Of a DNA stretch of 64,000 nt, positions 5,551 to 13,523 are shown one piece after another. The stretch lies in the NCBI GenBank assembly GCA_021736215.1, contig JAIPGI010000004.1, forward strand, positions 1-64,000, read 5' to 3'. Below the pieces are notes generated by a model, which saw only the letters and a program-made list of their open reading frames with translations, did no database searches and was not told where the DNA came from. How positions within the stretch are numbered: position 1 is the first letter of the stretch; each line of letters opens with the position of its first letter. Origin of the DNA: Candidatus Altimarinota bacterium (GTDB lineage: Bacteria > Patescibacteriota > Gracilibacteria > UBA4473). The translations under genes were made by a program, and so were the position numbers.

Positions 5551-5603
5551 GGGGCATTAGCTCAGTCTTCTCTTCGATCGCTCAAGCGAGACTGAGTAAT
5601 GCC
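5551..5603. repeat. Partial tRNA-Ala 5' copy folded into an inverted repeat
   Basis: The first 15 bases (GGGGCATTAGCTCAG) repeat the 5' end of the tRNA-Ala gene at 5640-5654, and the bases before each copy are also alike (TCGTTT..C). The arm GGCATTAGCTCAGTC at 5553-5567 pairs with GACTGAGTAATGCC at 5590-5603, with a smaller TCGCT/AGCGA hairpin inside. It cannot be a working tRNA. It could be a duplication scar or tRNA pseudogene. Confidence 0.6.
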
Positions 5604-5639: not shown

Positions 5640-5716
5640 GGGGCATTAGCTCAGATGGCTAGAGCGCATCCATGGCATGGATGAGGCCAAGGGTTCGAGT
5701 CCCTTATGCTCCACCA
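5640..5716 (+). tRNA. tRNA-Ala (GGC)
   Basis: A 77-nt cloverleaf. The acceptor GGGGCAT pairs with ATGCTCC. The anticodon stem CATCC/GGATG encloses ATGGCAT, giving anticodon GGC. The T arm is AAGGG-TTCGAGT-CCCTT, and the CCA end is encoded. Its last 7 bases are the start of the element's 21-bp direct repeat, so the gene is the chromosomal integration site and stays intact. The recombinase gene runs antisense through most of it. Confidence 0.97.
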
Positions 5717-7214
5717 TAGTTGATTTATCACTTTCTAATTCGTCGGGAAGCACGAAGAGAAGCGGTTTTTCAACGGTTCCAACTCCAACGCTTCTTTTGT
5801 AAGGCACTCCCTTTGGAAATAGCATCTTTAGAGCGAGTCGTTTTTTATTAAAATCATCGGAAAGCCACAGTAGAGAAGGGTCTTGCAGGAATGCACAAAC
5901 TTCCTCAAGAGCGGTTCCAAAATCTTCTGTAGGTTGCTTGAATTGGTTTAACTTGTCTTTCAGTAGAATTTTTTCATTCTCCAATTTCTCAACCTTGTCT
6001 TCCATCGCCTTCCTCACAATATCATTGGAGGCTTTTAGAACTGCCTCTAGCGTACGATCTTGTTCTTTTGGTAACTCCACTAGTCTAGCTTGAAGTTTCT
6101 TTGTTATAGCTTCATTTTCTTTTATTTTCTTATCCCATACATCTAGCAGTATTGCTTTTAGAAGTGTTAATGATTCTTGTTTCGGCTTCATCTTTCCTAT
6201 AGCGTTGGATAATTCTGATTCAAGAATATCTTTATCAATTCCTTTCCATCGAGCTGAACATTTTTTATTCCGACAATGGTAATAGGGATAGCTCTTATTT
6301 CTTCCTTTGGAAAAACTAGCTGTCATTGCTATTCCGCACTTATCGCAACACACAAACCCGCGAGCAGGAAAATCAAGATGTAGATCAGCTCTTTTTTGGG
6401 TCTTTATCTTCGATTTAAGGCGAGTTTGTATCTTATTGTAGGTTTCTATACTAATAAGAGCTTCGTGGTGTCCTTGAAGCAATTTTATATCCCACTTAGG
6501 GTAAGCAATATATCCTGTATAAAGTATGTGAGATAGAATTTTATCAACTGATTGCAAGGTAAGTTTTTTCGCTTTGAGAGGAACGAATCCTCTTTGATTT
6601 AGAAAGCGTACAAAATCTATTTTTGTTTCTAATATCCCATTCGCAAAACACTCTAGTCCTTCTTTGACGATACTAGCATTTGGCTCTACTGGAGAGAGAA
6701 GTTTTCCGTGCAAAGGATGTTTGATATATTCATATCCTGCGACAGGTTTAAAAACCCAATATCCGCTTTCAAGTCTTGCCCTCATCTTTTGATTTACCTG
6801 TCTTGTGTTTTGTTTTCGATCTAATTGATTCTTTCCTGCCATAATCAGTTCAATAAACTCTCCTTCAGGGCTATCATCAAAATTGTAATTCGGACATTCA
6901 AGAGTTGCCCCTCTGGAGCTTAACTCTACTCTCATTTGAATATGAACTTTTACATCTCGTGCTAACCGACTCAGATCATCAAAAATAATAACATAGTTCT
7001 CTTTGAGATTTTTATCCAAGTAGGCAACAAGGTTTCTCATAGCAGGTCGCTCAAAGAGTCCTCCCGAAATCCCTTCATCAGGAAATACTTTTACTACATC
7101 ATAACCTTTGTCTTTTGCATACTTCCGACATCTCGATTCTTGAGAGTCCAAACCATGCCCCTCCCTCACTTGTCTTTGAGAGGATACTCGGCAGTAGATG
7201 AGAGCTTTTTTCAT
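5646..7214 (-). CDS. Large serine recombinase (integrase), tail fused to antisense tRNA
   Basis: A 522-aa site-specific recombinase. The resolvase domain (1-145) has YCRVSS with the catalytic Ser at 11 and DDLSRLARD. A recombinase domain (about 165-270) follows, then a zinc ribbon (CDKCG...CRNKKC, about 288-320) and a coiled coil (about 360-425). The start is in an ATGA overlap with the 44-aa ORF. Residues 496-501 are encoded by the attachment core. The last 21 residues (from EHKGLEPLASS) are the antisense of tRNA-Ala, not native protein. Read through a closed circle, the frame would instead use the tail at 13391-13523, giving about 538 aa. Confidence 0.93.
   Translation of the reverse strand: MKKALIYCRVSSQRQVREGHGLDSQESRCRKYAKDKGYDVVKVFPDEGISGGLFERPAMRNLVAYLDKNLKENYVIIFDDLSRLARDVKVHIQMRVELSSRGATLECPNYNFDDSPEGEFIELIMAGKNQLDRKQNTRQVNQKMRARLESGYWVFKPVAGYEYIKHPLHGKLLSPVEPNASIVKEGLECFANGILETKIDFVRFLNQRGFVPLKAKKLTLQSVDKILSHILYTGYIAYPKWDIKLLQGHHEALISIETYNKIQTRLKSKIKTQKRADLHLDFPARGFVCCDKCGIAMTASFSKGRNKSYPYYHCRNKKCSARWKGIDKDILESELSNAIGKMKPKQESLTLLKAILLDVWDKKIKENEAITKKLQARLVELPKEQDRTLEAVLKASNDIVRKAMEDKVEKLENEKILLKDKLNQFKQPTEDFGTALEEVCAFLQDPSLLWLSDDFNKKRLALKMLFPKGVPYKRSVGVGTVEKPLLFVLPDELESDKSTMVEHKGLEPLASSMPWMRSSHLS
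5710..5730. other. Left attachment site (attL core)
   Basis: The left copy of the 21-bp direct repeat. Bases 1-7 (TCCACCA) are the tRNA-Ala 3' terminus, and the rest encodes residues around DKSTMV of the recombinase on the minus strand. Identity ends at C5731 versus A13524 on the right and at C5709 versus G13502 on the left. Confidence 0.88.
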
Positions 7215-7345
7215 GATAGGGAAGGGAAATATTGGTCAGCTATTTCTTGAGATAATTGATAGAGTCCGTTTCGGATTTCTTCAATTTCTTGATCGGTAAG
7301 TTCTGTGGTTCCGAGTATTTTTCTACATTCTTCTATGGTTAACAT
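7211..7345 (-). CDS. 44-aa small protein coupled to the recombinase
   Basis: The reading frame begins MLTIEECRKILG and ends YFPSLS. Its stop overlaps the recombinase start as ATGA (7211-7214), a layout that favours translational coupling. The sequence is acidic and helical (TDQEIEEIRNGLYQLSQEIA). Small ORFs with a similar EECRKILG...EIEEIRxxLYxLxxxI pattern accompany serine recombinases in other genomes as far as I recall. The function is unknown; a recombination directionality factor or simple coupling leader are possibilities. The 72 bp between it and the regulator hold no other gene. Confidence 0.7.
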   Translation of the reverse strand: MLTIEECRKILGTTELTDQEIEEIRNGLYQLSQEIADQYFPSLS

Positions 7346-7417
7346 TAGAGAGTACAGTATCCCTCATGGCAGGATCGCTACCACTTGGAAGGAAGTTTGA
7401 AAGCTGGGATCGCCAAC

Positions 7418-8203
7418 TCATTTTATTTTTTGGTCACGTTTAATAGACGTAATTTTTCCATCACTGTTTGTGCTTATAGTGATCTTTTGATTCTTTTTCC
7501 CCTGAATAAGGTCTATAAGAGATTTTTTTTTCGGATCGTAATTTAAATAATCTGTTTGTTTTAAGTCCTTAATATCAAATTCTTCACCATCTACTGAAAA
7601 TTCAATCGTTTTTCCATCTTCAACTTCTAAAATAGATTTAAAGAGTTTATCGTAATTAGAATCTCGTTTCTTATATTGAACTTTTGCAATATTTAAAATT
7701 CTCCGAAGACTAATAACAAAAAGTCCTGCGTGCTCACAATAAAAATCGTCAGGATCTAAACTGCCTTCAAGTATAGCATCCGCCAACTCAAAATCCGTTG
7801 CAGAATGTAACCCACTTTCTATATTTTTATCTATTACCAAGAAGATATTGACTCCTTGAATCAAAACATTAAGTAATCTCCAATTCAAAATTGTATCGGG
7901 AACCCCCTTGTATAAACATGAAGAAGTTTTACCAGTATTGGTAATAGATTCTTTTACCTTTTTTATCTTATCCAAAGAGAAGCCAAACTCTCGTAATTCT
8001 TTATAGATCAAAATTTCAATAAGTTCTGTAAATGAAAATTTGTGCCATTTGCCATCACTATTTTGGAAATGATCTATAAGTCCTTCTTGGCTCCAACTAC
8101 TAATGGTTCTGTATGTTAAGCCAGTATCCTTTATGGAAAAGCTTTTTTCTACAAAAAGAGGTTCTAATTCCCTTAGGGCGCGATTATATTCTTTCTGATC
8201 CAT
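7418..8203 (-). CDS. MerR-type transcription regulator of the element
   Basis: A 261-aa protein. Residues 20-85 fit a MerR winged helix: FSIKDTGLTYRTISSWSQEGLI, then KWHKFSFTELIEILIYKELREFGFSLDKIKKVKE, the usual helix-turn-helix, wing and coiled-coil linker. The C-terminal 170 residues are not a metal-binding MerR tail and I do not recognise them. It lies directly upstream of the 44-aa ORF and recombinase on the same strand, so control of excision or integration is the natural inference. Its own promoter has the long spacer used by MerR proteins. Confidence 0.72.
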   Translation of the reverse strand: MDQKEYNRALRELEPLFVEKSFSIKDTGLTYRTISSWSQEGLIDHFQNSDGKWHKFSFTELIEILIYKELREFGFSLDKIKKVKESITNTGKTSSCLYKGVPDTILNWRLLNVLIQGVNIFLVIDKNIESGLHSATDFELADAILEGSLDPDDFYCEHAGLFVISLRRILNIAKVQYKKRDSNYDKLFKSILEVEDGKTIEFSVDGEEFDIKDLKQTDYLNYDPKKKSLIDLIQGKKNQKITISTNSDGKITSIKRDQKIK

Positions 8204-8227
8204 TGGAAATATACATAAGAGTATATT

Positions 8228-8258
8228 TTCATACTACTCCGAAAAAGTGTACTGTCAA
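8228..8258 (-). promoter_or_regulatory. Promoter with 19-bp spacer before the MerR-like gene
   Basis: On the minus strand TTGACA (8258-8253) is followed 19 bp later by TATGAA (8233-8228), 25 bp before the ATG at 8203. An AGTAT/ATACT dyad overlaps the -10. MerR-family activators work on such overlong spacers, so autoregulation is plausible. Confidence 0.5.
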
Positions 8259-8270
8259 GTATAGTTTAGA

Positions 8271-10646
8271 TCATTGAAACAAACTCTCAAATTGTTTCCA
8301 ATCCTTGCTATCATTTACTGATTGCTTCTCTTTGAAAGAGTATGTTGAACTGTCATTGTAATACCAAACTCCCGCTTCTTGTACGGCTATACCACCAATA
8401 AACTTTTTACCAAACACTTTAAGTTTTGATTGTAATGCTTTGGCTTTGTCTGCAGTTTCAATACTTGTTGCGGTGTCACCTTTTTTAGTATCAAAAATGC
8501 CTATACGACCATCATGGAAATAAATAATCCAGTCAGGGTGGAAAGTATCATCCTCGTTTGTATCGGAGTGTGTATATTTAATGCCTAAATATTTTTTTCC
8601 CTGATTCCCATTCTTAAACCACCAATCAATCTTCCCTTTTTTCTTTTCCAAATATTCAACAAAAGCAATTTCATTTTTGCGTCCGTTGTAATCTTCGGAG
8701 AGATAAAATTCATCTAATACACATAGTTTTTGAGGTACAAGTTTGTAGTCTTCGGGATATTGATACTCCCCTTGTATGGTAAACGTGTACGCCTCCTTCT
8801 CTTCCTCTTTTTTTTTCTTTTCAGTAAGTAAGCTGTCGGAGATTGGCTTATAAATACGAAGGGCTTTTGTTATTGCTGGACGAAATTTGCTTTCAGTACC
8901 CTTGCGAATATCTTTAATAAACACCTTGTACCAATAAATATGGTCATCAGGTAAAACTGTTCTAAACCAAACACGAAGTGCTTGTTTGAGTATCGACCAA
9001 GAACGAGAAATGTTTGAATATTTAGCTTGTTTATCTTCTTGTTCTTTTAAAAGTTGATAGCAAAGATAATTAAAAGTTTTTTCAATATCGCTTACCGACA
9101 TCCCGAGCGAAATATCACATCCGTTTTTTCTAAAGTCGAAAGCTAGATTGTCGTAATCCTCAAAACGAGCATTTGCAACAACCTCATTAACCAAATTTTC
9201 GCTTAAATCTAAACCCATTTCTTTTAATTTTTTCTCAGCCTTCCCAAGGATGTCATTGTTAGTAATACCAAAATATTTATTAAATTCTGTTCTGAATATT
9301 TCTTGAAATTTTGAAGACACACGAATATCACCGTAATCTAAACGAGAAACATAATCCGAAGGCAATTCTATATTTTTTATACCTTTCTTTCGGTAAGCAA
9401 ACTTTATTAATGGTTTATTTTTTGGGTTCTGATCTGGTATTTCTACTTCCTTACGTTTGTAATTTGTATATAAATAACCCAGCCAAAGATTCGGATTATT
9501 TTTGTAATCTTCTTTAACCTGCGGGTCAGGCATTCTTAAAATACGTCCCACTGTTTGAGTATAAAAAGTATTTGATTGTATTTCTCTAAACATTACAAGT
9601 ACTGAAGCACGAGGACAATCCCATCCCGTACCTGCCGCCTGTTTAAAAAGAAGAAAATCGTGTTCATCATCATTATCTTCCAAGCCATCAGGACGCGGGT
9701 GTTTATCAAACCACTTCGCAATCCTGTGTTCAGGTACTTTATTCCTAAGAAGATACTCTGTTACGATTTCTTCTTTTCTCTGTTCGCCCTTTTCTACGAG
9801 TTTATTATCATCATTCGGTAGTTGTATAAGCATTAAAGGATTTATATCTTTCCCAAGTGCCTTAAGTTCTGCTTTGAGCTCCTCTCTTTTCTTCATTCCA
9901 ATCTCAAGGAGGGTTTTATCAAGGTCTTTTCCAATCATGCCTTTAAAATCTTCTTCAGTTTGAGTAACAATAGCTTCTTTGATTAGCCCCTGTTCAACTA
10001 CTTCTTCTCGTGGAACCTCACAAAAGCTACCAAGACGACGAGCTTCTAGTTCATCTTTTTCGTTAGGGGTTGCAGTAATATGAAGAATTATTTTAGGATT
10101 GATTTTATCAATAATATCTTTCGCAAGTTTTGTGTCTTTATTTTTGTGGGCTTCGTCAATTATTAGAATGATCTGTCGATCATCTGCTTGAGTCTGTTCA
10201 ATTACATCTTCAAAGTATTTCCCTTGCTCTTTTTGCCATTCTTCATCTTCGGGACGGCGGAGTAATTTCGTATCTGCATTTTTAGCAATAACTTTTTGCC
10301 AATTCAAAAATAAAATATCATTTTGATAAAGCTTCCCTTGATTTATATCTGCAACGGTTAAGGTTTTGTTTTCAAGCATATTTTCAAAATATTCAAGAAA
10401 TTTATTCTTGCTTTGCATTGCTAAATCATCACTAAACGTAATCCAAATAAATGCTTTATCCTCCTTCCATTGAGGCAAATGGTTGAGCCCACGAATAAAA
10501 AGTGATGCCATAAAGGTTTTCCCGCTTCCCGTTGGCGACTTAAATACAATGGGTAATTGCCTACCTTCCTGTTTCCATACAGAGACAAATACATCAGTTA
10601 GGTTTGCCACCGCATTTTTTTGAAACCTTAATGGATTAATGTTCAT
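8271..10646 (-). CDS. res: Type III restriction enzyme, Res subunit
   Basis: A 791-aa SF2 helicase-nuclease. It shows Walker A SPTGSGKTF (37-45), DEAH (164-167), HITATPNE as motif III, and QAAGTGWDCPRA and TQTVGRILRMPDP as motifs V and VI. A PD-(D/E)xK nuclease lies near the C-terminus (P704-D705, D719-T-K721 in IFDTKK). It would cleave unmodified DNA in complex with Mod, driven by ATP. The length is somewhat short for Res (usually 870-990). It starts 3 bp after the mod stop, so the two are co-translated. No frameshift is seen; the gene looks intact. Confidence 0.93.
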   Translation of the reverse strand: MNINPLRFQKNAVANLTDVFVSVWKQEGRQLPIVFKSPTGSGKTFMASLFIRGLNHLPQWKEDKAFIWITFSDDLAMQSKNKFLEYFENMLENKTLTVADINQGKLYQNDILFLNWQKVIAKNADTKLLRRPEDEEWQKEQGKYFEDVIEQTQADDRQIILIIDEAHKNKDTKLAKDIIDKINPKIILHITATPNEKDELEARRLGSFCEVPREEVVEQGLIKEAIVTQTEEDFKGMIGKDLDKTLLEIGMKKREELKAELKALGKDINPLMLIQLPNDDNKLVEKGEQRKEEIVTEYLLRNKVPEHRIAKWFDKHPRPDGLEDNDDEHDFLLFKQAAGTGWDCPRASVLVMFREIQSNTFYTQTVGRILRMPDPQVKEDYKNNPNLWLGYLYTNYKRKEVEIPDQNPKNKPLIKFAYRKKGIKNIELPSDYVSRLDYGDIRVSSKFQEIFRTEFNKYFGITNNDILGKAEKKLKEMGLDLSENLVNEVVANARFEDYDNLAFDFRKNGCDISLGMSVSDIEKTFNYLCYQLLKEQEDKQAKYSNISRSWSILKQALRVWFRTVLPDDHIYWYKVFIKDIRKGTESKFRPAITKALRIYKPISDSLLTEKKKKEEEKEAYTFTIQGEYQYPEDYKLVPQKLCVLDEFYLSEDYNGRKNEIAFVEYLEKKKGKIDWWFKNGNQGKKYLGIKYTHSDTNEDDTFHPDWIIYFHDGRIGIFDTKKGDTATSIETADKAKALQSKLKVFGKKFIGGIAVQEAGVWYYNDSSTYSFKEKQSVNDSKDWKQFESLFQ

Positions 10647-10649
10647 AGA

Positions 10650-12425
10650 TTAAATGATGTTGTATATCTGTTTATATATCTCAAGAATTGGTTGTGGTAT
10701 TGTTTTGAGACTTATATTTTTATTATCTTCAAAATCAAGAATTTCTATCTTTTCTTCCCAGCTAAACATATATACTGTTACTGGTTTCTTGAGTGACAAA
10801 ATCTCATTTACGAATTCATCAATCCGATCTTGTTCTTCTCTAAAATAGATTGCTGTCATTCTGTCTCTGTTTTCAAATACTTGCCAGTAATCATTCTTTT
10901 TAACTTGGTCTAAAGTGTTTTCGGCTATTGCAAGCATTTCGCCTGCATGATGAGCAAGTTGAATTTTATCTTTATCATCTGCATCTAAAATATTGTGTTT
11001 ACCGACGAACGCTGTTTTGTAGTACTTAACATTTTCTTTTGATCCTTGTTTATTTTTATAACCATTTATTGCGTTTTTCACTCTTGGTAAGCAAGTGTTA
11101 TCCATTATTTTATCCTCATTGTTGGTAACAAGAACAACCTTATGATTTTGTCGAAGATCCATTACTGCCTCTAACGTAGAACCTGATCCAGCAAAAAAAT
11201 CAATGATTGTATTTTGCTTATTAGGTTTTATTCCCAGTTTAAGTAAGTATTTGAGAAATTCTAAAGGTTTTTTCCCACTTCTAAAATCAACATCTCCCTC
11301 GTGTCTACAGTTACCGAAAGCGTCAGCGAAATTAACAAAATTTATAACGGGAAGTGTTTTTTTCTTTCCGTCGCTGTTTTTGAAAATTTCCTGAGGAACC
11401 CCTTGATAATACTTACCTTTGGATGCGGTTGCTTTTTTGGGACCTGTAAAATATCTGTAATCATAAATATCATCACCTATGCCATGTACTTTATACAAAG
11501 TACCTAGTCCATCATCTTTTTGTCTTGGAATAAGATAATCTCTAAAAAATCTCCCCGACGAGTTACCATCTAAAACTTTCCCCGTAGCCCATATTTCTTT
11601 TAAGGCACTTTTCTCAGGCTCGACCTCAATTATTTCGTATTGATCTTTGTTGAATACTTCGACCTTCTTTCCACCAAGATTTATTATTATTGGTTTCCCT
11701 TTTTCTTTTATTTTGTAAATAAATTTTTCAAAACTATAATCGACTTCTTCTCTATTAAGTTTAGCCAACTGGCTTTTCCCATAGACATAAACGGTTTCGA
11801 TAAGCTTCTGAACATCCATATCCTCAACCAGCGTTTTCCCTGCATAGCGAACTTGAACATATAAGGGTAAAAGAAAGTTGGATTGTCCAAAAATTTCATC
11901 ACACAAAAACCTTAATTGTGAACTCTCATTATCATCAATGCTAATGAAAATTAAGCCATCATCCGCTAATATATCTCGGGCTAATTCGAGGCGTTTTTTC
12001 ATGAAAGAAAGCCAATAACTGTGTCTAAATGGATGATCTTTAGGAACTTCTGTGCCATCAGGATATTTATCTAAGAGACGCTTGTCTTTGTAACGAAAAC
12101 CATCTTGCCCAGTGTTATAGGGCGGATCAATATAAATAACATCAACTTTCCCTTTATGTGTATAGTTTAAACAAGTTAGTGCATGATAATTATCGCCTTC
12201 AATTAAAATATGAGTAGGCTTGTTTTTATCGCCCAATATTGCTTTTTTAGGAACTTCTTCAAGAATCGGTAGTTTATTTTCAACATCATCTTCAAATGCT
12301 TCGGGAACATCAAGCCAGACCAAACCATAGCGTTGAGTTTTAACCGCTTTTTTCCATTTCTCAATTTCTTTTTCAAGTTTGAGAATATGATTATCTCTTT
12401 GTTGTAGTGATTTTTTATCAGGCAT
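10650..12425 (-). CDS. mod: Type III DNA methyltransferase, Mod subunit
   Basis: A 591-aa beta-class N6-adenine methyltransferase: DPPYNTG (motif IV) at 100-106 comes before FFAGSGST (motif I) at 410-417, with the target-recognition region between them. The N-terminal 30 residues form a basic coiled coil. It supplies both modification and DNA recognition for Res. I chose ATG 12425 (MPDKKSLQQRD); a GTG at 12452 in the same frame is possible. No simple-sequence repeat that would suggest phase variation is present in the gene. Confidence 0.92.
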   Translation of the reverse strand: MPDKKSLQQRDNHILKLEKEIEKWKKAVKTQRYGLVWLDVPEAFEDDVENKLPILEEVPKKAILGDKNKPTHILIEGDNYHALTCLNYTHKGKVDVIYIDPPYNTGQDGFRYKDKRLLDKYPDGTEVPKDHPFRHSYWLSFMKKRLELARDILADDGLIFISIDDNESSQLRFLCDEIFGQSNFLLPLYVQVRYAGKTLVEDMDVQKLIETVYVYGKSQLAKLNREEVDYSFEKFIYKIKEKGKPIIINLGGKKVEVFNKDQYEIIEVEPEKSALKEIWATGKVLDGNSSGRFFRDYLIPRQKDDGLGTLYKVHGIGDDIYDYRYFTGPKKATASKGKYYQGVPQEIFKNSDGKKKTLPVINFVNFADAFGNCRHEGDVDFRSGKKPLEFLKYLLKLGIKPNKQNTIIDFFAGSGSTLEAVMDLRQNHKVVLVTNNEDKIMDNTCLPRVKNAINGYKNKQGSKENVKYYKTAFVGKHNILDADDKDKIQLAHHAGEMLAIAENTLDQVKKNDYWQVFENRDRMTAIYFREEQDRIDEFVNEILSLKKPVTVYMFSWEEKIEILDFEDNKNISLKTIPQPILEIYKQIYNII

Positions 12426-12504
12426 AACTATTTTGTAATTTTGAATTTGCACTCAACATGACAAAATTGTAATCACTTTCGTTTGAATATTCCATAAAAA
12501 CATT

Positions 12505-13059
12505 CTAAAGCTTATTCACCCAACACCCCAAAGCTCTATCTAATTTGTTCTGATAATAAAGCCATCTCCTATACCGCCTTGTTTCCTTCCCTTTGTAATA
12601 CTTTCTAATCGTTTCTAATTCATCTTGCAATTCGTAGTAGGTAATTATTTTCCCAAATCTTTTCTTACGTCCCCCTATGTTTTGACTTGTGTATGCAAGA
12701 TGAAGACATTTCCTACAGCCGAGTTCTCTTCCATTGCGTAAATAAAGCTTTTTTACGCGTTTACCGCAATAAGAACAATGAAGCCAATACCTTACTCCTC
12801 CATAATTACAGGATGAATTTGAAAGCAATACATGATAATCATATCCTTTCTTTTCTCCGCTCCAATAATCTGTTTGGGTATATTGCAACCTTAAATAGGT
12901 ATTCTCAGCATCCACCTCGGCTCTCACTGATCCCCATTCTTCTCCGTTTGAATACCATGTTAGAAGTCCTGCATAATAATTTTTTTCTAAATATCCCAAC
13001 TTTTTTAATTTAGAAGTATCAATCCATTTGCACCCTTCTACTGTTAGTCCTCCTCTCAT
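12505..13059 (-). CDS. Zinc-ribbon protein of mobile elements
   Basis: A 184-aa protein with a treble-clef/zinc-ribbon centre: HCSYCGKRVKKLYL and LGCRKCLHLAYTSQ, four Cys in two CxxC pairs. A basic C-terminus (RKYYKGKETRRYRRW) follows. I have seen this CxxC...CRxCxxLxYxSQ type as an unnamed protein on many bacterial mobile elements; its role is not known to me. The start overlaps the previous ORF as ATGA. It is followed by 79 bp before mod. Confidence 0.75.
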   Translation of the reverse strand: MRGGLTVEGCKWIDTSKLKKLGYLEKNYYAGLLTWYSNGEEWGSVRAEVDAENTYLRLQYTQTDYWSGEKKGYDYHVLLSNSSCNYGGVRYWLHCSYCGKRVKKLYLRNGRELGCRKCLHLAYTSQNIGGRKKRFGKIITYYELQDELETIRKYYKGKETRRYRRWLYYQNKLDRALGCWVNKL

Positions 13060-13394
13060 CTTAAAATTGATTTAAAAACCAAAAAATCAAAACTTGTCAT
13101 CGGATAAGTAACGAGGCTAAAAGCCTCTCGCACAAAATCCAAAGTATTACCTACACTGCGTTTTAGGCAGACACTTTGTTCGTTTGTGCGTACTTGTCCT
13201 TCATTATTTGGTTGAATAAAAATCCATAGGGTAAGCATGGACATATTATTGAATTTATTTTGTTTCCCCCTTTCTCCTGAAGAGCCGAAATCATTAGAGA
13301 AACTCTGATTTTTTATTTCCTTAAAATCCATGATTTTCCATGGTTTTTTCCCTCCAGTTCTATTCCCCTTTGGTGTCTTATTCATAGGATTCAT
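13056..13394 (-). CDS. Hypothetical protein, first ORF after the right attachment site
   Basis: A 112-aa protein (MNPMNKTPKGNRTGGKK...), basic at the start, with no family I recognise. Its stop overlaps the next gene as ATGA. Its own ATG (13394-13392) overlaps the TGA that ends the displaced recombinase tail, so in the circular form it would be coupled to the recombinase. A TTG at 13400 is an unlikely alternative start. This double coupling is the best evidence that it is real. Confidence 0.6.
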   Translation of the reverse strand: MNPMNKTPKGNRTGGKKPWKIMDFKEIKNQSFSNDFGSSGERGKQNKFNNMSMLTLWIFIQPNNEGQVRTNEQSVCLKRSVGNTLDFVREAFSLVTYPMTSFDFLVFKSILR

Positions 13395-13523
13395 AGGCAA
13401 TTACTTATAGAAGTACATGGAGCCTCTATCTTGGCATATCTTAGCCATTCACCCCACCGCAAAACAGTTTCTAGTATTTGATTCCAACTCTGATACACTT
13501 TGTCCACCATAGTTGATTTATCA
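13391..13523 (-). pseudogene. Displaced 3' end of the recombinase gene
   Basis: From the attR core the minus strand reads DKSTMV (shared with attL) and then 37 further codons beginning DKVYQSWNQILETVL and ending SISNCL, before TGA at 13391-13393. It has no start of its own. It is in frame with the recombinase across the joined attachment core, so it is the native C-terminus of the circular form, cut off by integration. Confidence 0.8.
13503..13523. other. Right attachment site (attR core)
   Basis: The right copy of the 21-bp direct repeat. To its left is element DNA (ending ...CACTTTG) and to its right the chromosome (AAAGCGAAC...). No tRNA precedes it, as expected for the far end of a tRNA-integrated element. 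Positions 13524-13660 show no gene. Confidence 0.88.

Follow-up and report, generated by a model that had tools for sequence, protein, structure and literature searches.

A large serine recombinase gene that appears to span its own attachment site and to exchange its C-terminal tail upon integration into a tRNA gene

The 64,000-nucleotide stretch of a Candidatus Altimarinota genome analyzed here (the window; the genome that contains it comprises 1.01 Mb in 17 contigs) carries an element of about 7.8 kb inserted at a tRNA-Ala gene, and the recombinase gene of this element runs across the attachment site. This raises the question of which C-terminus belongs to the recombinase, and of what integration does to it. 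The integration target, tRNA-Ala (GGC), was located by ARAGORN at 5640-5716 on the plus strand. The core sequence, TCCACCATAGTTGATTTATCA, is a 21-bp repeat with exact copies at 5710-5730 (attL, the tRNA end of the element) and 13503-13523 (attR, the distal end). The cargo is a type III restriction-modification system on the minus strand (8271-12452), consisting of res (8271-10646) and mod (10650-12452), identified by ResIII and N6_N4_Mtase. At the far end, the minus strand also encodes a cysteine-rich protein of 184 aa (12505-13059) with no family match. The core reaches 14 bp past the 3' end of the tRNA, and the core pairs in Alphaproteobacteria share 6-9 bp (n=7). In a genome of the same genus (G012), tRNA-Ala is present without the element, with flanks that are not syntenic with the site in the window.

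In the integrated state, the recombinase is encoded on the minus strand at 5646-7214 as a frame of 522 aa, with Resolvase, Recombinase and zinc ribbon domains (PF00239, PF07508 and PF13408, all above cutoffs). Its C-terminus reads DKSTMV followed by EHKGLEPLASSMPWMRSSHLS, and the last 21 codons are antisense to tRNA-Ala. When the two cores were joined in silico as in a circle, the frame instead became 538 aa long and continued from DKSTMV into DKVYQSWNQILETVLRWGEWLRYAKIEAPCTSISNCL, a tail of 37 codons that stops at TGA 13391-13393. This detached tail with its stop occupies 13391-13504 of the minus strand and has 31 homologs, located at other distal ends or in free forms. The original prediction had given the cores, both frames and this stop, and all of its coordinates proved exact. 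As the core repeat is exact, every crossover within it yields the same join and the frame cannot slip. All recognized recombinase domains remain together after integration; only the C-terminal tail is lost.

Relatives of the recombinase occur both in genomes and in IMG/VR. They were found in 17 of 353 genomes of the class (the genome under study included) and in 19 of 380 genomes of the phylum. A first scan of genome contigs with the single sequence gave no match, and an alignment-based search of the genome collection then gave 515 loci, of which the best 80 were kept. These best 80 of 515 come from Patescibacteria and from many Alpha- and Gammaproteobacteria. The best named match was in a Candidatus Gracilibacteria MAG, followed by Peregrinibacteria, other Patescibacteria and Proteobacteria. 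Close relatives were not found among phage and plasmid records (best about 28%), nor was there a second recombinase match in the same genome at E <= 0.001. The recombinase is also shared by relatives with many in-frame TGA codons (L012-L017), which encode glycine under code 25.

Homologs that end at or before the core would have spoken against a gene that runs through its attachment site. Among the relatives with a tRNA or tmRNA gene at their 3' end, however, the recombinase frame crosses the 3' end of that gene in antisense in every case (82/82), and none stops before it. The family's own stop codon thus lies outside the integrated gene. The RNA genes concerned include tmRNA and tRNA-Ala, -Arg, -Met, -Leu, -Thr, -Val, -Ser and -Tyr.

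Joined forms occur naturally. In the IMG/VR contig L328, a linear fragment, recombinase and tail form a single ORF of 533 aa that aligns across the core to the protein joined in silico (query residues 1-523 of 538). A more distant IMG/VR contig, L329, likewise a linear fragment, encodes recombinase and tail as one ORF of 517 aa. No tRNA was detected in the DNA fetched around either gene. An integrated relative that is 72% identical to L328 (L123) shares its sequence through LV[DE][IL]SG, which lies a few residues beyond the core, and from there runs into antisense tRNA-Ala; L222, 64% identical to L329, also ends in tRNA-Ala. No joined copy is present in the assembly of the genome under study (1.01 Mb, 17 contigs). 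For three integrated virus contigs (L119, L123 and L222), the first 9 kb of each record contained no distal tail, perhaps because the tails had been trimmed off.

A second comparison was provided by Stappia elements in tRNA-Ala and tRNA-Met. Their recombinase DNA is 96.7% identical up to the core and then 45-47% identical in attL, while identity is 95-96% across their distal tails and 29-31% across the DNA that precedes these. These breaks in identity place both ends of the element at TGGTGG without reliance on the core repeat.

In total, 32 tails were collected from distal ends or free forms in Patescibacteria, Alphaproteobacteria and a virus, and they are homologous (N.L...[IL]..W...L). Read from the distal TGGTGG in the recombinase register, the tail in the window is VDKVYQSWNQILETVLRWGEWL, and those of G008, G178 and G172 are VEVVENNWNTLVETIIEWGEIL, VDMIRQSWNQLQDAIFEWHGIL and VDSVRRSWNQLPQMIIELYEQL; short distal tails are seen in G117 (LVEFLRKNLNTFENL) and G122 (LVEFIEQHLNNILIK). 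When 341 class genomes were scanned with the att DNA pattern alone, 15 matches in 9 genomes were obtained, all of which open into tails, and the reversed control pattern gave no match in the same 341 genomes. IMG/VR pattern matches that lacked a preceding recombinase were set aside as chance or undecided. The Patescibacteria pattern recognized no alphaproteobacterial tail because the motif there is SN, not WN. In Alphaproteobacteria the distal sites, 13-41 kb away, were located by comparing element with element; their tails follow V[DG]xxGExSNxLFxxLxxWExxL, with N, L, the hydrophobic residue, W and L spaced as in Patescibacteria.

The 82 integrated homologs, the 32 tails and the two joined ORFs agree that the recombinase gene spans attP and that its C-terminus is replaced by an antisense-tRNA peptide, as first proposed. 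The likewise predicted non-random nature of the open frame past the core is borne out by the homology of the tail to those at the distal ends of related elements. On this comparative evidence, integration almost certainly exchanges the recombinase tail.

Whether the tail matters as protein is a separate question, since the region past the core might have been kept only as DNA, as the attP half-site, with an incidental open frame and an irrelevant tail product. The half-site does overlap with codons 1-10, where DNA conservation is strong and includes a fixed motif that gives W/S-N. Beyond it, however, codons 12-23 are conserved with a coding periodicity that is absent from the other frames. The recombinase register is open for at least 20 codons in 32/32 tails, compared with 10 and 7 in the other two registers. 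Identity per codon position past the half-site is 0.37/0.50/0.30 (codons 12-22, 25 tails), and the mean BLOSUM score there is +0.73 in frame versus -0.43 and -0.97 in the other frames. The in-frame score was reached by 0 of 500 column shuffles, a count that is not a formal probability because the tails share descent. Position 16 is hydrophobic in all 32 tails, W stands at position 19 in 21 and L at position 23 in 23. Some early tails were chosen by a motif that includes position 12; the 11 tails chosen by DNA alone display the same coding pattern as the full set. As joined recombinase-tail ORFs also exist, conservation as DNA only is a very unlikely explanation, and the coding pattern argues strongly that the tail functions as protein.

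The protein might alternatively act in trans, if the tail were translated alone in the integrated state from an NTG codon at the core. Such a codon is present in 31 of the 32 tails and is mostly a possible start (first residue L in 17, M in 10 and V in 4), but it is imposed by the TGGTGG core. What precedes it, moreover, is host DNA, in which no conserved ribosome-binding site is evident, and we consider a separate micropeptide most improbable.

One and the same stretch of DNA provides the right half-site of attP and encodes the C-terminal tail. The crossover region, TGGTGG, is the reverse complement of the tRNA CCACCA and lies inside the recombinase ORF. On the minus strand, the attP right half-site lies within the tail (13480-13509, TGGTGGA...TGGAATC), with a T-loop-like motif at +23, and the right half-site derived from attB comprises the tRNA 3' end and T-arm (5692-5716, TGGTGGA...TCGAACC), with the motif at +18. 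Wherever the motif T[CGT][GA]AA[CT] was found among the sites examined, its distance from TGG is 18 bp in the site next to the tRNA and 23 bp in the one belonging to the element; it is missing in one tail and in two relatives with an end that is not tRNA-like. In the right half, which the analysis covered, the zinc-domain motif is thus 5 bp farther from the center in attP than in attB. Large serine integrases are known to have this motif 5 bp nearer the center in attB than in attP (PMC3783163), and the shift has also been given as 4-5 bp (PMC12412911). As the distances of 18 and 23 bp match the known 5-bp shift, the tRNA T-arm is most likely the attB half-site and the start of the tail coding sequence the attP half-site. 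In this tRNA- and tmRNA-targeting family of large serine integrases, attP most probably lies within the 3' part of the integrase coding sequence.

The restored stop had also been predicted to be coupled to the next gene of the element, as TGA 13391-13393 overlaps an ATG at 13392-13394 (ATGA). This part of the prediction did not hold. The 112-aa ORF that starts there has no relative in 341 class genomes and no match in Pfam or NCBIfam, and stop-start overlaps are not a conserved or general feature of the tails. The overlap is therefore no evidence of a coupled gene, and coupling seems hardly credible.

Upon integration, the tail DNA remains at the element's far end, and antisense tRNA or tmRNA sequence takes its place. 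In the mechanism that we propose, a circle (a newly arrived or excised element) would express the integrase in full length, ending in a flexible linker and a C-terminal helix, and this form would carry out attP x attB integration. Integration would immediately substitute a tail-less integrase that is weaker or altered in direction, and the reaction would be self-limiting. Excision would then depend either on the tail-less integrase assisted by a directionality factor or on full-length integrase supplied by a tandem copy or an incoming relative. A candidate for such a factor, or for a regulator, is the product of a 44-aa ORF whose stop overlaps the recombinase start (7211-7345, minus strand). 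A related small ORF (LTxEECRKxLG...LSDxEIE) lies upstream of more than 30 recombinase homologs (tblastn).

How much the exchange does is less certain than the exchange itself. The tail may be needed or useful and its loss have no regulatory role, with the position of attP inside the gene keeping a compact integrase-attP cassette together. The recombinase body does retain every known domain after integration, and compactness has been argued for other integrases (PMC8371274). That 82/82 relatives cross the RNA gene, and that conservation reaches from Patescibacteria to Alphaproteobacteria, points to retention of the arrangement itself, although a tail used for integration alone would fit these observations equally; we regard a neutral loss as somewhat unlikely. 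At the other extreme, the tail could block attL x attR, so that excision falls to the integrated, tail-less form. The directionality of serine integrases is set by the trajectory of the coiled coil, and an integrase-bound directionality factor reverses it (PMC12412911); a tethered helix could mimic that factor. In an AlphaFold2 model of L328, long helices at 368-395 and 399-425 form a coiled coil after the zinc domain, followed by a disordered linker (497-510) and a tail helix (512-532). As this helix was of low confidence and undocked, no mechanism was drawn from the model. Docking is not predicted, and the conserved 44-aa partner may be the usual directionality factor, which makes so strong a switch distinctly unlikely, although the tail as a tethered peptide is plausible from the model. 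Between these readings, we lean toward some regulatory effect of the tail swap. The more sweeping generalization is put forward tentatively and may well prove too broad: that in widespread bacterial serine integrases one stretch of DNA is both attP half-site and regulatory C-terminal helix, that the T-arm is read as the attB half-site, and that integration removes the helix and converts an integrating into a non-integrating or excising form without a separate factor.

The closest description that we found is that of DsiB from the ssrA-specific islands of Dehalococcoides, a serine recombinase of about 540 residues at attL of tmRNA (McMurdie et al. 2011, PMC3146451). According to the passages on these islands, the 3' end of dsiB always overlaps attL, its reading frame does not terminate within the island, and the authors speculated that full function of DsiB might require the circle or a neighboring tandem island. 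Both systems have a serine recombinase gene at attL whose 3' end overlaps that site. In contrast to the present family, the same passages mention neither a conserved tail at the distal end nor a natural joined form, and neither half-site geometry nor tRNA targets; DsiB is treated there as a homolog of CcrB that acts together with DsiA, a small recombinase (PMC3146451). The element in the window has a single recombinase by ORF list and Pfam, with no DsiA-type partner. It resides in tRNA-Ala rather than ssrA, many of its relatives reside in tmRNA, and it is set beside DsiB by description.

In the archaeal suicidal (SSV-type) tyrosine integrases of SSV1, pTN3 and pT26-2, attP likewise lies in the integrase coding sequence and integration breaks the gene; a complete integrase from elsewhere has been proposed for excision, and the arrangement was called exclusive to archaea (PMC8371274). 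Those tyrosine recombinases are divided into an N-terminal and a C-terminal part, which severs the catalytic domain, whereas the bacterial serine recombinase here loses its tail alone. Mycobacteriophage BPs also has attP in a coding gene whose product is altered at the C-terminus by integration, but there the gene encodes the repressor, which loses a degradation tag (PMC4557955), and here it encodes the integrase. Large serine integrases such as A118/LI and SPbeta (4kis, 9dxh) are solved relatives by sequence profile and share the domains and the 5-bp motif shift; unlike them, the present family has its crossover within the coding sequence, and in its target tRNA and tmRNA genes it uses the T-arm and the 3' end. 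The main text of a large 2022 survey of LSRs does not mention tRNA (PMC10083194). Within the open-licence literature, the precedents are thus dsiB, as speculation only, and the archaeal suicidal tyrosine integrases; an earlier report elsewhere is possible.

The directionality of serine integrases has long been studied and is of practical use in genome engineering, and a family that alters its own enzyme by integrating offers a direct test of the same enzyme with and without the tail. Cultured hosts (Stappia, Thioclava) make the swap testable. The principle of an integrase that disrupts its own gene would be extended from archaeal tyrosine to bacterial serine enzymes, and the T-arm as half-site suggests a route by which one integrase lineage could spread among many tRNA and tmRNA genes. 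As the C-termini annotated in integrated copies of this family do not belong to the element, recombinases cloned from such copies would lack the tail.

Two further features were seen. A hairpin at 5553-5603 on the plus strand, just upstream of tRNA-Ala (-24.3 kcal/mol, z -4.0), starts with GGGGCATTAGCTCAG, the same as the 5' end of the tRNA. Tails also occur in tandem: G174 has three in a stretch of about 600 bp, and G219 and G185 have two each, separated by 337 bp and 1191 bp, respectively. The tails L238 (G174), L236/L237 (G233), L234/L235 (G220) and L239 (G230) showed no recombinase nearby, and some tails therefore persist as remnants. Repeated integration may have left the tandem and orphan tails as scars, or they may be non-autonomous elements.
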